NCBI GenBank assembly: GCA_903926605.1
Contig: CAIYJV010000228.1
Span: 1 to 32,190, forward strand
Length of the DNA: 32,190 nucleotides
DNA from: an uncultured Bacteroidota bacterium
GTDB lineage: Bacteria > Bacteroidota > Bacteroidia > Chitinophagales > Chitinophagaceae
Reading direction: 5' to 3'
Below, in pieces: positions 1,562 through 7,434 of this stretch. The notes under the pieces were generated by a model, which worked only from the letters and a program-made list of their open reading frames with translations, ran no database searches and had not been told where the DNA came from. Numbering within the stretch: position 1 is the first letter of the stretch; each line of letters starts with the position of its first letter. The translations under genes and the position numbers were made by a program.

Positions 1562-4500
1562 TCAGTTTCCGGAAAGGTTTACCCGACGGTTGCTGAGTGA
1601 GGTATCGGTGGGTTTAAGGTTGTTGAAACCGGGGTCTTTTCGCTTGTTCGCTCCCGGAGTTTTTTCTTTGCCGAAAAAATCACCAAAATTGTCGAATGCT
1701 TTCCGCCAGGAAATGCCAACGCCATTTTTTACAATCTGTTTGTCCAGCGTCACGTCGAAATCGCTGGTACTGAACCCATTGAGTCGTAGTTTGCCTGACG
1801 GTGTGAGCAGGTATTGAATTTTGAAGTCACCGGAAAAGTTGTAGGACGAGGCTACTGAGGCCGACCAGTCGGACTTTCCGCCGGCTTCTACTATCAGCCG
1901 GTCGTTCAGGAAATTACGGCTAATGGTGCCTTTTAGCTGGTTGCGGTTCCAATAAGAACCGGCATCGCTGTAGTTGTAGTTCTGGTAGTTTACATTTATG
2001 TTCAGCTTACGCTCTCCCGTAAGTTTGCTGACTATGTTGGTAAGTCCGGTTGATACCGTTCCCGACAGTATCTGTGATATATTGTTGAGTGCCAGGGTAC
2101 TTCCGGAGTTTTTGCCAAAAAGGCCCTCCTGCGACATAAAGCTGCCTGTGAGCAATAACGAAGCAACCTGATCCAGTTTCTGGCGGTCGTCTTGGTTTAT
2201 GAGCATCAGCTTGGTGTATGCCGGATTGCTTTCCATGCCTTTATTGTCGAGGCTGAGGTCGAACGACAGCTTGGGATTGAAAATCACATCCTGCATGTGC
2301 AGCAACACGTTTACAGCTTGCAACTGTTTGGCATCGAGCAAATCTGAACTGCCGCTGGTACCGGACGGTGACATAGATGCCTGCTCGGTAGCGCTCAGCA
2401 AGTCGAACAACCTGGCTTTGGCAGTGTAGGTGGCAAACACATCGAGCGTGGTGGCGGCAAACGGTCCCTTAAAATAAATGGTGCTTCCGGAATTGAGCTT
2501 GAACTGTTTGGAGTAATTGAGCAATTGCTTAAATGTAAACGTATAGGTTCCAGACTCGATATTGTACCCCCCGGTAATGCGCATATCGTTGTTGGCAGGC
2601 ATCTTCAACTGTATGTTGCCTTCGCCACGGGCGTCTATGGCATCGCCTGTTACAGGGTCGAGTAAAATGGTCATAATAGCCAAATTGTTCATATTGGCAT
2701 CTATGTCCAAATTTATTTTAAGCGGGTTTTTCTTTACCGGTTTTTCTATGGCTTTTCCATAGGTTTTGAATGATACATAACTGTACGATCCCGCATCGCC
2801 GGTAGTGGCCATGGGTATATAAATATGGGATTTGTCTGCCGGATATACGTTGTATGCGTTGAGTGAAATATCGTTGAATGGTCCTGAAACGGTAAAAGAG
2901 TCCATACCTACAGTGGCATAGCCATAAAAATAGATATTGTCGTTGTGCGATAATCTGAGTGCCTCGATTTTTTCGGATCGGGCATTGATGTGCATACGCA
3001 TATCCCTGAACAATTGGTGGGCGAAATAACCCGACACATGCGCCTCATTCTGGTACTGATCCAGGACTGTTACGTCGCCCAGGTCTATCCGGGTATTGCT
3101 GACGTGTACTTTGGCATAGGGTATTTTGTAGGCCACACCCATATAATCGAGCAAAAAGGCCGCATCATGCACTTCGAGGTCACCCTTGATGTTTGGTTCG
3201 TAGGAGCGCCCCCCGATCAGTACTTTGCCGTCTACCGTTCCGCCCAGCCTACTGAATACACCCGAGATAAAAGGCGAGGTACAGGCAACCGGAGCATGAT
3301 TGAACTGAATGACACCGTCTAGCTGCTGATTGATATTGCTATCGAACGATATTCGCCCTGCGCCGGTAATTGACGAACCATCAGAAAAGTATATACCGGA
3401 TTGTGGGTCCAGAATAGCCAGTTTTTTGTAGGCGTCGTAGTCGCTTATTATGGTGATGCCGCCAATAGTATCAGTGCCAAGTTTTACATTGGTTGCCCTG
3501 ATATTGCCACTAAAGTAGGGAGCGCTGAGCAGGTTTGTTATACTCACGGTACCATTTATTCGCCCGTCGGGCTGGTAGTAATTGAGGCCGGTGAGCGCAC
3601 CAAGCTGGGCAAGATCTATATTTTCCAGGTTCAGAAGCATGGGGTGCGCGCCATTTAAATCGGGCGATGTTACGCTGATTTTCTGGAGGGCTGATGTGAT
3701 GTTGAGGTTATCTACAGAAAGATACTTGCCGGAATATACGGCGCTACTGCCCATTGCTATGTCCCACCTTACCTGATTGAGATAGAAGGATGAAGGATTC
3801 ATGGCAAGGTATAAAGTATCGTGGCTGGCCCTGATTTCTCCGTTCAGCGTAATGGAGCTGGTAGAGTCTGGTGTGGTAGTTGCAATATTAAAATTGAGCA
3901 GATCATTGCCCAGAGAGGCCGTAAAACCTACCGACCCGGATATGATACTGTCGCCCAACACCACATTGTCTATAGTTGTATTTACACTGATGGTATTGAG
4001 GTTGCCCTGTGCTGAAACCGCAACATTGTTCATGTGCACTTTTCCCAGTGTTCCGTTGGGTATGCTGGCCACCACGGAGAGGTTTTTGGAGTATGTGCTG
4101 AAAATGCCGCTGATGTAAGACGAATCGAAGCCGCGCACCCAGGGCACTGTAATGGCAAATATGCTATCTACCGAGTATGTATTGATCTTGAACTCCAGAT
4201 CTTGTTCCGGAGCAGTACCCGCAGGGGTCTTTACGTAGTCTGGCAGATAGCGAGCCAAATAATACTGAAATGAAGCCGGCAACTTGCTGATGCGGTAGTT
4301 GCCCTTGATCTTGGCATAGGCGGCGTTGCTCTGAATAGTGAGGACTTTGTTGGTGCTGTCGCCGGTGGCGATCAGCGTTACAGAGTCGAGAGCCAGCTTG
4401 TGTTGTTCCCGGCGTATATTGATCTTGCCCAGACGGGCGAAACCCGAGAAGTTGTCTATGTTACTACCGGTACAATCCAAATCGAAGTCGGCAGAGGCTG

Positions 4501-6313
4501 TAAATAAATTCTCTGTGAACTTCAACTCCCTGAAGTTGCACTTGGTGACCGATGCTTTGGCCTTGACGTTCACACGGGCGCTACGAAAGTCTATTGCACC
4601 GTTAAAGTTCATTGCCAGGTTTGTGTCGGCTACGTTCAGGAAACCGCTGAACTGCCTGTTTTCCAAGGATCCGATCGTGGTGATGTGCGCGTATGAATAG
4701 CCATTCAGGTCTATGCTGCTAATATTTCCGTCCAGTTCAACATGACCGTTGGAGGGTAGAAACGAAAATCCGGAAATTTTTTCGTCGAGCGATATGCTGC
4801 CCAGAAAATCTTTTTTATTGAGCAGATCGCCCAGCATAAAATTGTTTACAACCACATAACCCGCATACATGGCAGAGTCGGGTTTAAAACCGGGAAGGAA
4901 CATACGCACGTCGGCATCTATGTTTCCCAGATTGGTGGTGATCATCCCCTTGAGCGAAAAGCTGTCTATAAACCCGGAGTAATCCCCTGTAAAGTAAGCA
5001 TAGGATAGTTTTTCGAGTGCCAGGTCCTCGCTGTTTCTCAAGCCGGGCACATATTTCAGGATACCTTCACCGTTGGTTATCAGGTGCGCTTGTGTGAAAC
5101 TGATGCGGCTTTTGTAGATATCCGGCAGGCCCTTTATGGTTCCGTTTCCCTTCAGAAAATTGACACCGTCGGTTACCACGAGGTCGCGGCCCGAAAGATT
5201 GGCAACGGTACCGTTGCCCGAACCACTACCCCTTAGTGTGATCTGAGGAAAGGTCTTTAAAACAGGGGCGAAACATGCAACATCCCTGATATCCACCACA
5301 GCGTCTTTCAGGTTGCCCTCCATACGTACACTATCTATATAGTTGAGGAAATCGGGGAAATGCCTGTACCGCATTGCGTAGTAGTTCTTCACCTTGCTGT
5401 AGTTGGTCTCCAACAACAGGTTGGCACATACAGATGCTATTGGCGACACGCTCACTTTGCTGCGCATAGACTTGATGGCAACACCGCTCCGTTCTGCCGC
5501 TTCGAGATGCTGTAAATCGCCGGTAATGGTATCACCAATGATACCGGCATCTTTTATGTTGATTCGAATGCCATTGATGACAATATGGTCCGGGTCAAAT
5601 TCGCCCGGTTTGGGGACAGTGGTACCCCAGTTGATGCTAAACGCTGAATTATTGACGATAGTGGAACGGATCCTAATTACCCAATTGTCTTTGTTGAACG
5701 GCGTTGGATCAAATTGCTCGGTATCAGAATGTGGTGGTTTACGTTCAGGTGGGCGTCCGCCGGTGTAATCTCTGTAAGCTACATTTGCCCCGTCTATGTT
5801 GATATCGTCTACAAACACGGATTTTTTCTTCATGTCAACCGTGCGCGTGTCGAGGTCCAGCTTTGCCACATCGTAGTTCATATCCCAGCCTACCCAATTG
5901 TCGTCCATGTGAAACCGGACATTCTCGAGTGCTATCTTTTTCAGATCAAACTCAAAATCCTGTTTTGGGTCCGGCTTCTTTTTATCAGACGCAAAAAAGT
6001 CTTCCAGATAAGCATAGTTCCACACGTCTGAGGTGCGCGGTCTGTAAAGGTGCAGGTAGATGTTTTTAAGACCCAGGTAGTGCAACACGGGAGTCTTATG
6101 ACTAAAGACCAGGTCTGACAGGTGAAGTTCCAGTTTTCCGGCATACAAGAGCGTGTCGTTCATTTTGTCTTTGACCAACACATCGTTCAGCACAAGGTGA
6201 TTAAAAAAACTTATCTCTACAGAATTGACCTGCACGGCAGTACCGATCTTTCCAGACAAAATCGAGGCGGCCCTCCGTGTAAGAAAATTCTGCACCGGGC
6301 TGAGGTTGAGCAA
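1562..6313 (-). CDS. tamB: TamB-family translocation/assembly protein (start region irregular)
   Basis: This 1583-residue protein is of the TamB/AsmA-like class: long periplasmic beta-rich bridges anchored in the inner membrane that help assemble outer-membrane proteins or carry lipid between membranes. The whole length is repetitive short beta strands, and the last 400 or so residues look like the conserved TamB C-terminal domain, with a run around 'NVNYQNYN' and a final barrel-like stretch. The first recognised start in frame is TTG at 6313, which would leave out the membrane anchor. The same frame reads upstream through VSGIVIFSFITISILLL, a clear membrane segment, to a stop at 6373-6371 with no ATG, GTG, CTG or TTG in between. 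A second frame just upstream encodes LRRFFKILKK, a typical anchor lead, from a CTG at 6387, and joins the main frame if the A6 run at 6358-6363 were A7. The true start is therefore upstream of 6313. Family call is strong; the gene symbol is by family. Confidence 0.88.
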   Translation of the reverse strand: MLNLSPVQNFLTRRAASILSGKIGTAVQVNSVEISFFNHLVLNDVLVKDKMNDTLLYAGKLELHLSDLVFSHKTPVLHYLGLKNIYLHLYRPRTSDVWNYAYLEDFFASDKKKPDPKQDFEFDLKKIALENVRFHMDDNWVGWDMNYDVAKLDLDTRTVDMKKKSVFVDDINIDGANVAYRDYTGGRPPERKPPHSDTEQFDPTPFNKDNWVIRIRSTIVNNSAFSINWGTTVPKPGEFDPDHIVINGIRINIKDAGIIGDTITGDLQHLEAAERSGVAIKSMRSKVSVSPIASVCANLLLETNYSKVKNYYAMRYRHFPDFLNYIDSVRMEGNLKDAVVDIRDVACFAPVLKTFPQITLRGSGSGNGTVANLSGRDLVVTDGVNFLKGNGTIKGLPDIYKSRISFTQAHLITNGEGILKYVPGLRNSEDLALEKLSYAYFTGDYSGFIDSFSLKGMITTNLGNIDADVRMFLPGFKPDSAMYAGYVVVNNFMLGDLLNKKDFLGSISLDEKISGFSFLPSNGHVELDGNISSIDLNGYSYAHITTIGSLENRQFSGFLNVADTNLAMNFNGAIDFRSARVNVKAKASVTKCNFRELKFTENLFTASADFDLDCTGSNIDNFSGFARLGKINIRREQHKLALDSVTLIATGDSTNKVLTIQSNAAYAKIKGNYRISKLPASFQYYLARYLPDYVKTPAGTAPEQDLEFKINTYSVDSIFAITVPWVRGFDSSYISGIFSTYSKNLSVVASIPNGTLGKVHMNNVAVSAQGNLNTISVNTTIDNVVLGDSIISGSVGFTASLGNDLLNFNIATTTPDSTSSITLNGEIRASHDTLYLAMNPSSFYLNQVRWDIAMGSSAVYSGKYLSVDNLNITSALQKISVTSPDLNGAHPMLLNLENIDLAQLGALTGLNYYQPDGRINGTVSITNLLSAPYFSGNIRATNVKLGTDTIGGITIISDYDAYKKLAILDPQSGIYFSDGSSITGAGRISFDSNINQQLDGVIQFNHAPVACTSPFISGVFSRLGGTVDGKVLIGGRSYEPNIKGDLEVHDAAFLLDYMGVAYKIPYAKVHVSNTRIDLGDVTVLDQYQNEAHVSGYFAHQLFRDMRMHINARSEKIEALRLSHNDNIYFYGYATVGMDSFTVSGPFNDISLNAYNVYPADKSHIYIPMATTGDAGSYSYVSFKTYGKAIEKPVKKNPLKINLDIDANMNNLAIMTILLDPVTGDAIDARGEGNIQLKMPANNDMRITGGYNIESGTYTFTFKQLLNYSKQFKLNSGSTIYFKGPFAATTLDVFATYTAKARLFDLLSATEQASMSPSGTSGSSDLLDAKQLQAVNVLLHMQDVIFNPKLSFDLSLDNKGMESNPAYTKLMLINQDDRQKLDQVASLLLTGSFMSQEGLFGKNSGSTLALNNISQILSGTVSTGLTNIVSKLTGERKLNINVNYQNYNYSDAGSYWNRNQLKGTISRNFLNDRLIVEAGGKSDWSASVASSYNFSGDFKIQYLLTPSGKLRLNGFSTSDFDVTLDKQIVKNGVGISWRKAFDNFGDFFGKEKTPGANKRKDPGFNNLKPTDTSLSNRRVNLSGN

Positions 6314-6413
6314 TAAAATGCTGATTGTAATAAAAGAAAATATTACAATTCCGGAAACTTTTAATATTTTAAAAAATCTTCTCAGCTAATACGCTATTTA
6401 GTATTTTTCTACA

Positions 6414-6421
6414 AATGTAAT
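6414..6421 (-). promoter_or_regulatory. Bacteroidota -7 promoter box for tamB
   Basis: The minus strand reads TACATTTG, an exact TAnnTTTG match. Transcription would begin near 6410, just ahead of the CTG at 6387 and the A6 run. This supports the view that the tamB message includes the stretch upstream of TTG 6313. No ATG or GTG lies between the box and the anchor sequence. Confidence 0.5.
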
Positions 6422-6570: not shown

Positions 6571-7434
6571 GTGAAGAAACCAATTATCATATCCCTATTG
6601 TGTGTGTGCCTGCTGGCGGGCCATGCCGCTCTGGGGCAAAGTTATTATACGATAGCCGAATATGGGCTGGCCATTGGCGAGTCTCAGTATTTTGGCGACC
6701 TTAATAACAATTATGGCTTAAAAACGCTGCACCCTTCCTATGGAGTTTACTGGCGCTATCACCTGAACCAGTTTATCGCAGTAAAAATCGTGACCAATAT
6801 TACTCAGGTAGGCTATAACGATAATCTGAATAAGAACCCCTACGAGAAAGAGCGCAACCTGAATTTTGAGACCGACATTTATGAGGGTATGCTACAGGCA
6901 GAGTTCAATTTTTTCAGATTTGCTACCGGTGATCCGGAGCACCGTTTTACGCCTTACCTTACGGGGGGCATCGGGGCTATTTATTACAATCCTTATACTT
7001 ACTACGCCGGTGTAAAATACTACCTGCAGCCATTGGGTACCGAGGGACAGAATGCAGGATACAGCGGCCGCCAATACGGAAACTACAGTCCCTGTTTCCC
7101 CATCGGGGCGGGTTTTAAGATGTGGCTGGTGGGTGGCGTGAATCTGAGTATAGAAATAGCCGACAGGCTCACTACGACCAGCTATATGGACGATGTGAGT
7201 TCCACCTATGTCGGGATTGACAAATTCAAATCCAATTCTATCGCTTCGATATTGCAGGACCGCTCCGGTGAAATTGCGGGCAACAACGTGTTGGGCCGGG
7301 CGGGTAAACAAAGAGGTAATACCAGTCGTAAAGATCAGTACATCATAGGGCTGTTCAGCCTATCCTGGCATTTTAAGTCTTATCATTGCCCGCAGGGCCT
7401 GAATGACGATATGATCAGGGTAAGAAGAAGATAA
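6571..7434 (+). CDS. DUF6089-type outer-membrane beta-barrel protein
   Basis: The 287-residue product starts with a clear signal peptide (KKPIIISLLCVCLLAGHAALGQ), followed by alternating aromatic strands: YGLAIGESQYFGDLN, then 'GVYWRYHLNQFIAVKI' and 'YLTGGIGAIYYNP'. This is the pattern of the small Bacteroidota barrels annotated as DUF6089, whose exact role is not known. I choose the GTG at 6571 because it is followed at once by KKP and the hydrophobic core; a TTG at 6556 would add five residues (VRQQ before the Val). A weak -7-like box (GACCTTTG, one mismatch) lies at 6522-6529. The gene stands alone and is convergent with the SGNH hydrolase, 12 bases away. The intergenic stretch 6422-6555 shows nothing else. 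Confidence 0.8.
   Translation: MKKPIIISLLCVCLLAGHAALGQSYYTIAEYGLAIGESQYFGDLNNNYGLKTLHPSYGVYWRYHLNQFIAVKIVTNITQVGYNDNLNKNPYEKERNLNFETDIYEGMLQAEFNFFRFATGDPEHRFTPYLTGGIGAIYYNPYTYYAGVKYYLQPLGTEGQNAGYSGRQYGNYSPCFPIGAGFKMWLVGGVNLSIEIADRLTTTSYMDDVSSTYVGIDKFKSNSIASILQDRSGEIAGNNVLGRAGKQRGNTSRKDQYIIGLFSLSWHFKSYHCPQGLNDDMIRVRRR

Follow-up and report, generated by a model that had tools for sequence, protein, structure and literature searches.

A conserved CTG codon as the probable start of tamB in Chitinophagaceae, with apparent non-AUG tamB starts elsewhere in the class

Where does translation of tamB begin when its reading frame offers none of the usual start codons ahead of the membrane anchor? The question is raised by the window, a stretch of 32,190 nucleotides from an uncultured Bacteroidota bacterium, in which tamB lies on the minus strand with no ATG, GTG or TTG in frame ahead of the anchor, as the initial annotation had recognised. 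When only these three codons are admitted as starts, the open reading frame begins at TTG 6313 and most of the anchor would be lost, also as first described. The features of the 5′ region are the following.

1562..6385, minus strand: tamB coding sequence, an open stop-to-stop frame of 1607 codons that would begin at the CTG and ends with TGA
6383..6385, minus strand: proposed start codon CTG, the first codon after the in-frame stop and the one aligned with the family codons
6386..6388, minus strand: in-frame stop TAG, which abuts the CTG on its upstream side and excludes an in-frame upstream start
6305..6385, minus strand: LRRFFKILKVSGIVIFSFITISILLLN, the basic N-terminal lead with the membrane anchor that follows it, read in the tamB frame
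6311..6313, minus strand: TTG chosen by mechanical ORF calling, an internal codon within the anchor
6365..6370, minus strand: tamB codons 6-7 (AAA ATA), near-fixed at the nucleotide level in the family
6371..6376, plus strand: A6 run, which reads TTT TTT in the sense direction and forms the ordinary codons 4-5 (two Phe)

The tamB gene is intact and lies in one frame. Read on the minus strand, its 5′ end runs TAG (6388-6386) CTG AGA AGA TTT TTT AAA ATA TTA AAA GTT TCC GGA ATT, and the lead LRRFFKILK and the anchor VSGIVIFSFITISILLL form a single open frame from which no base is missing. As the initial annotation had it, the frame upstream of TTG 6313 encodes this anchor and contains no ATG, GTG or TTG; the CTG at 6385-6383 is the only NTG codon ahead of the anchor in the tamB frame. 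The lead had been assigned to a different frame opening at CTG 6387. It in fact shares the stop-to-stop frame of the anchor (1562..6385, 1607 aa), the CTG stands at 6385, and the stop thought to bound the anchor frame, at 6371-6369, belongs to another frame. Judged by eye, LRRFFKILKVSGIVIFSFITISILLLN contains an N-terminal inner-membrane anchor, and the lead and anchor are present in 14/14 aligned sequences (the window and 13 relatives). The Pfam TamB domain (PF04357) matches residues 1109-1564 of the product (E 8e-39, 134.4 bits against a cut-off of 22.4), and the protein falls below the cut-off of the NCBI equivalog model TamB NF047952 (36.4 bits against 825), which in our reading describes the proteobacterial TamB type. 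The divergent neighbour of tamB, porG, is a type IX secretion gene. Its start seems to be GTG 6571-6573 on the plus strand (GTG AAG AAA CCA ..., signal-peptide-like) and not the mechanically called TTG 6556.

We compared the 5′ end of tamB across the family, which was taken as Chitinophagaceae by record titles; most of its named records are titled Chitinophagaceae, Taibaiella, Flavipsychrobacter or simply Bacteroidetes, and a few titles are odd. Family loci were sampled as 30 loci and 60 fetched stretches out of 288 matching genomes; removal of 28 duplicates and of L056, where the model match began at position 11, reduced 176 loci to 147 distinct tamB genes. At the codon aligned with the window CTG (codon 1), these genes carry CTG in 123 cases, TTG in 16, GTG in 4, and ATG, TTA, CTT and GCT in one each. 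CTG, TTG, GTG or ATG thereby stands at codon 1 in 144/147, and the three genes that depart from NTG are preceded by an ATG at a distance of 3 or 8 codons (two genes) or by a TTG in the immediately preceding codon (one gene). The three further species of the genus that were examined likewise have CTG. With CTG in 123/147 family genes, a putative start codon other than ATG, GTG or TTG is kept between species. The excluded locus L056 has the lead CTG CGT AAA AGC CTT AAC ATA TTA, followed by an extra ~50 largely hydrophobic residues before the usual anchor.

Codon 1 follows the pattern of a start codon and not that of a leucine codon, since its first base is free while T and G are fixed. The third base is 98% fixed, the other listed columns ranging from 0.29 to 0.69 with the exception of codons 6-7, and CTG makes up 33.5% of the leucine codons at codons 2-95 of family tamB. 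Fourfold-degenerate sites are near saturation (identity 0.334 vs 0.255 expected). On an 83-gene tree built without the first residue (74 CTG, 5 TTG, 3 GTG, 1 ATG), codon 1 undergoes 6 changes, and six other leucine codons, with 43-81 rows each, undergo 16-41; this tree is the sole analysis here that accounts for relatedness, and all other counts ignore it. The comparison across genomes establishes the position and the conservation of this predicted start codon. We therefore consider it very probable that tamB is read in one frame from a conserved CTG start at 6385-6383, with CTG, TTG or GTG kept at this place within the family and often ATT or ATC outside it.

The codons that follow are conserved in the manner of coding sequence. 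Across codons 2-6 the amino acids are conserved while synonymous change is free: codon 2 encodes Lys or Arg in 138/147 family genes, and codon 3 encodes Arg in 106/147, with all six Arg codons in use, and Lys in 35. This selection on amino acids at codons 2-3 indicates that the lead is translated and that the ribosome starts no later than codon 2. The segment from the upstream stop to codon 1 is free of in-frame ATG, GTG and TTG in 111/147 genes, 102 of which have CTG at codon 1, and in 7/147, the window included, the stop directly abuts codon 1. An in-frame ATG lies between stop and codon 1 in 9/147 genes, within five codons in 4; at L094, a CTG at codon 1 is accompanied by an in-frame ATG within five codons upstream.

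The sequence upstream of the CTG contains a promoter-like box. The -7 promoter element of Bacteroidota has the consensus TAnnTTTG, and the window carries a match at a short distance from codon 1.

6412..6419, minus strand: TACATTTG, matching the Bacteroidota -7 element TAnnTTTG, 26 nt before the CTG

The transcription start would lie ~5 nt beyond this box. Among family genes, TAnnTTTG occurs 5-60 nt upstream of codon 1 in 106/145, mostly at 20-29 nt, against ~6 in shuffles, and a relaxed form of the element occurs in 140/145 against 21 in shuffles. Given the position of the box just ahead of the CTG, the frame upstream of codon 1 is probably not even transcribed. As a counterpoint, however, an ATG, in one frame or another, lies between the box and codon 1 in 23/142 box-bearing rows.

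Outside the family, the start of tamB varies. In 36 loci from other families of the order, read by eye, it is mixed (TTG, GTG, CTG, ATG and perhaps ATA), with ATG in several. For other orders of the class, presumably Bacteroidia, we used a mixed sample with 80 stretches taken from 138 matching class genomes: 104 class or phylum loci, less 8 of the paralogue TamB2 (recognised by ORF length), 3 of the same family, 2 of the same order and 2 duplicates, gave 89 loci, 5 of them from other classes of the phylum. The aligned codon in these 89 is ATC in 25, ATT in 20, TTT in 6, TTG in 5, ATG in 4, GTG in 3, ATA in 2 and other codons in the rest, so that an isoleucine codon stands at the aligned place in only 47/89 rows, many of the remaining rows being ambiguous. 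The base before a codon-1 ATT or ATC is T in 41/45 mixed rows, compared with 156/503 before internal ATT or ATC (Fisher p ~1e-15, relatedness ignored). Read as a codon, the preceding triplet would encode any of eleven amino acids; conservation there thus concerns a nucleotide and not a residue, as would be the case in a leader. No in-frame ATG, GTG or TTG precedes codon 1 in 32 of the 45 ATT/ATC rows, an in-frame ATG lies upstream in 6, and 27/45 carry a promoter-like box 10-52 nt ahead of codon 1, against 6 in shuffles.

Two families of other orders were sampled more deeply, f42 (one genus, best 30 of 35) and f75 (30 different genera, best 30 of 58; our guess is Flavobacteriaceae). In the best 30 of 35 from f42, tamB has ATT at codon 1 in 30/30, preceded by T in 30/30. 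In the best 30 of 58 from f75, it has ATC in 27 and ATT in 1, with T before it in 25/28, and the other two genes have ATC one codon upstream; in 12 of these f75 genes the stop lies only one or two codons before codon 1. No ATG, GTG or TTG occurs between the stop and codon 1 in 28/30 genes of each of these best-30 sets, and a promoter-like box is present in only 10/30 (f42) and 12/30 (f75) of them. Taken with the mixed sample, these alignments suggest that much of the class uses a start other than AUG for tamB. In several f75 genera (L439, L443, L444, L447, L452), a CAAAGGTAAAACAT-like stretch lies just ahead of the ATC start and may be a promoter or leader element.

Several other readings of the locus were weighed against a CTG start. 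Gene callers limited to ATG, GTG and TTG pick TTG 6313, and translation could in principle begin there or at a further ordinary codon, the conserved upstream codons remaining untranslated. That codon is inside the anchor, however, the first downstream ATG, GTG or TTG falls at codons 9-24, the anchor region, in 117/147 family genes, and codons 2-6 show conserved amino acids with free synonymous change (Arg by six codons at codon 3), all of which makes an ordinary downstream start very unlikely. Programmed slippage or frameshifting from an upstream frame had been suggested by the A6 run, first placed at 6358-6363. The run exists, at 6371-6376, but it has no role, as the tamB frame is already continuous. 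Neither of the other two frames of the window contains an ATG, GTG or TTG between its last stop and the junction, which leaves a frameshift without any upstream start to connect with tamB. Other-frame ORFs spanning codon 1 have any canonical start in 51/147 and 73/147 family genes (15 and 32 when ATG only is counted), so that no such upstream partner is general in the family. The assembly of the window genome is fragmented (426 contigs), which speaks for an ATG misread as CTG; against this, CTG is shared by 123/147 distinct genes that include isolates of Taibaiella and Flavipsychrobacter and the closed chromosome CP075895. The continuous frame and this shared CTG likewise rule out the polymerase slippage on A6 and the one-base sequencing or assembly error that had been proposed. 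Both a programmed frameshift and a misread ATG are therefore exceedingly improbable. An unusual start codon, the remaining early suggestion, was the right kind of answer (CTG here, ATT or ATC in many genomes of other orders), although not as the ATT proposed at 6367: the codon there is ATA, and ATT does not appear in frame downstream of the CTG until 6349. The observation that tamB lacks a normal start thus stood, while all three explanations offered for it failed as written.

The codon at 6367-6365 nevertheless merits attention. Third-base conservation at codons 6 and 7 of family tamB is 0.88 and 0.91, and ATA accounts for 132/139 family Ile codons at codon 7 (usage 37%) and 56/65 in the class sample (usage 24%); it is also found at codon 7 in 30/30 genes of f42 (best 30 of 35) and 30/30 of f75 (best 30 of 58). 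This exceeds codon habit, as early Ile codons in 400 kb of G170 are ATA in only 137/265. Near-fixation of this kind speaks for the ATA as itself the start, or for the use of both CTG and ATA, and ATA looks like the real start of infC in f75, where 25/25 genes (L461-L485) lack ATG, GTG and TTG and most seem to begin ATA GCA .... The lack of these codons in f75 infC fits the known non-AUG start of that gene and serves as a positive control. Yet ATT and ATC, which could serve as starts too, are nearly absent from codon 7. ATA as the sole start was rejected, because codons 1-6 look translated and codon 1 has the character of an NTG start. A start at ATA, including its joint use with CTG, appears improbable overall, though somewhat less so than a start downstream, and initiation at the CTG remains the preferred reading.

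A CTG start is not a general habit of these genomes, as judged from two control genes. The paralogue TamB2 is a related protein that resembles tamB in having a similar basic lead and anchor in several genomes, but differs in its start codons: in 20/31 family loci an in-frame ATG coincides with the aligned codon or precedes it, in 10 the only candidates are GTG or TTG, and in 1 the sole candidate is CTG. Apart from the query, six TamB2 genes have ATG followed by an Arg codon at precisely the aligned position, with a similar lead (M-R), and an ATG-started TamB2 occurs together with a CTG-started tamB in one genome in four cases: G044 (L373/L016), G064 (L374/L032), G028 (L376/L029) and G071 (L378/L014). 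The second control, infC, is present in the window genome. In the tamB family it has an in-frame ATG in 18/18 genomes examined, and in other families of the order only GTG or TTG is available in 9/10, including L288 (TTG). A crude scan of 400 kb of G170 returned 4/312 ORFs without ATG, GTG or TTG in the first 40 codons; tamB was not among them.

In the model we favour, an mRNA with a short leader of ~20 nt would be translated from CTG 6385-6383, where formyl-methionine would presumably be inserted by the initiator tRNA, giving (fM)RRFFKILK followed by the membrane anchor. CUG is reported to represent 0.024% of bacterial start codons and to support 0.86% of AUG output (PMC11497404). Initiation by fMet-tRNA at CUG would accordingly be expected to be weak, and the weak codon may keep synthesis of the large essential TamB low. 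Start codons outside the AUG, GUG and UUG set are disfavoured by IF3 (PMC4611024), so this factor may also influence TamB levels. The sequence context also agrees with weak initiation: in Flavobacterium johnsoniae, an A at -3 and at -6 promotes initiation (PMC6847099), and CTG rows are poor in this base (22% at -3, 27% at -6). Folding of 60 of the 123 CTG rows gave no sign of an mRNA hairpin around the start, these rows being slightly less structured than shuffles (mean z +0.59).

Given the rarity of CUG, one would not expect a family to retain it in the orthologue of an essential gene; that it does so implies that weak or controlled initiation is favoured by selection. Evidence that tamB is essential comes from F. 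johnsoniae; in that study (PMC12045153), replacement of the native tamB promoter failed despite several attempts, depletion of TamL caused TamB to rise sharply, and the authors suggest strict regulation for TamL and not for TamB. A tuned, low rate of TamB synthesis would fit these promoter and depletion results. The non-AUG start may bear on the failed promoter replacement, with the proviso from the same study that a tamB promoter swap worked in Capnocytophaga canimorsus (PMC12045153). There is also a practical consequence: callers limited to ATG, GTG and TTG likely misplace the TamB start here and cut off the membrane anchor that defines its topology. More broadly, the tamB start bears on whether initiation factors control outer-membrane biogenesis.

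The literature searched, which mostly did not cover subscription papers, contained no report of or experiment on a non-AUG tamB start. By comparison, tamB appears to have a conserved non-canonical start of the kind found in infC and sigR, in a new gene context. Like infC, it is an essential gene with a conserved putative non-AUG start of the ATT/ATC type, a kind of codon against which IF3 discriminates. Unlike infC, it encodes an envelope protein; as the product is not IF3, self-regulation is not expected. Within the family of the window the two genes also part ways, infC having an in-frame ATG in all genomes examined and tamB a CTG, while in f75 (tamB, best 30 of 58) both seem to carry non-AUG starts. 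In Streptomyces, sigR has a GTC start that is conserved in 32/34 species and for which IF3 repression was shown experimentally (PMC5472188). The likeness to sigR is a non-canonical start conserved within a group; the codon and the gene are different, and sigR concerns one genus whereas tamB spans a family (CTG) and the sampled families of other orders (ATT/ATC).

It is conceivable, although we regard it as doubtful, that the non-AUG tamB start is an ancestral feature of the class, in the form of an IF3-sensitive ATT or ATC with U at -1 that became CTG in Chitinophagaceae, that it couples the supply of an outer-membrane assembly bridge to the state of initiation, and that AAA-ATA is a second part of the signal. 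A U at -1 could reportedly pair with A37 of initiator tRNA and so support AUU and AUC (Esposito et al. 2003). Where codon 1 is CTG, there is little bias at -1, as this pairing model predicts when the first base of the codon is mismatched.
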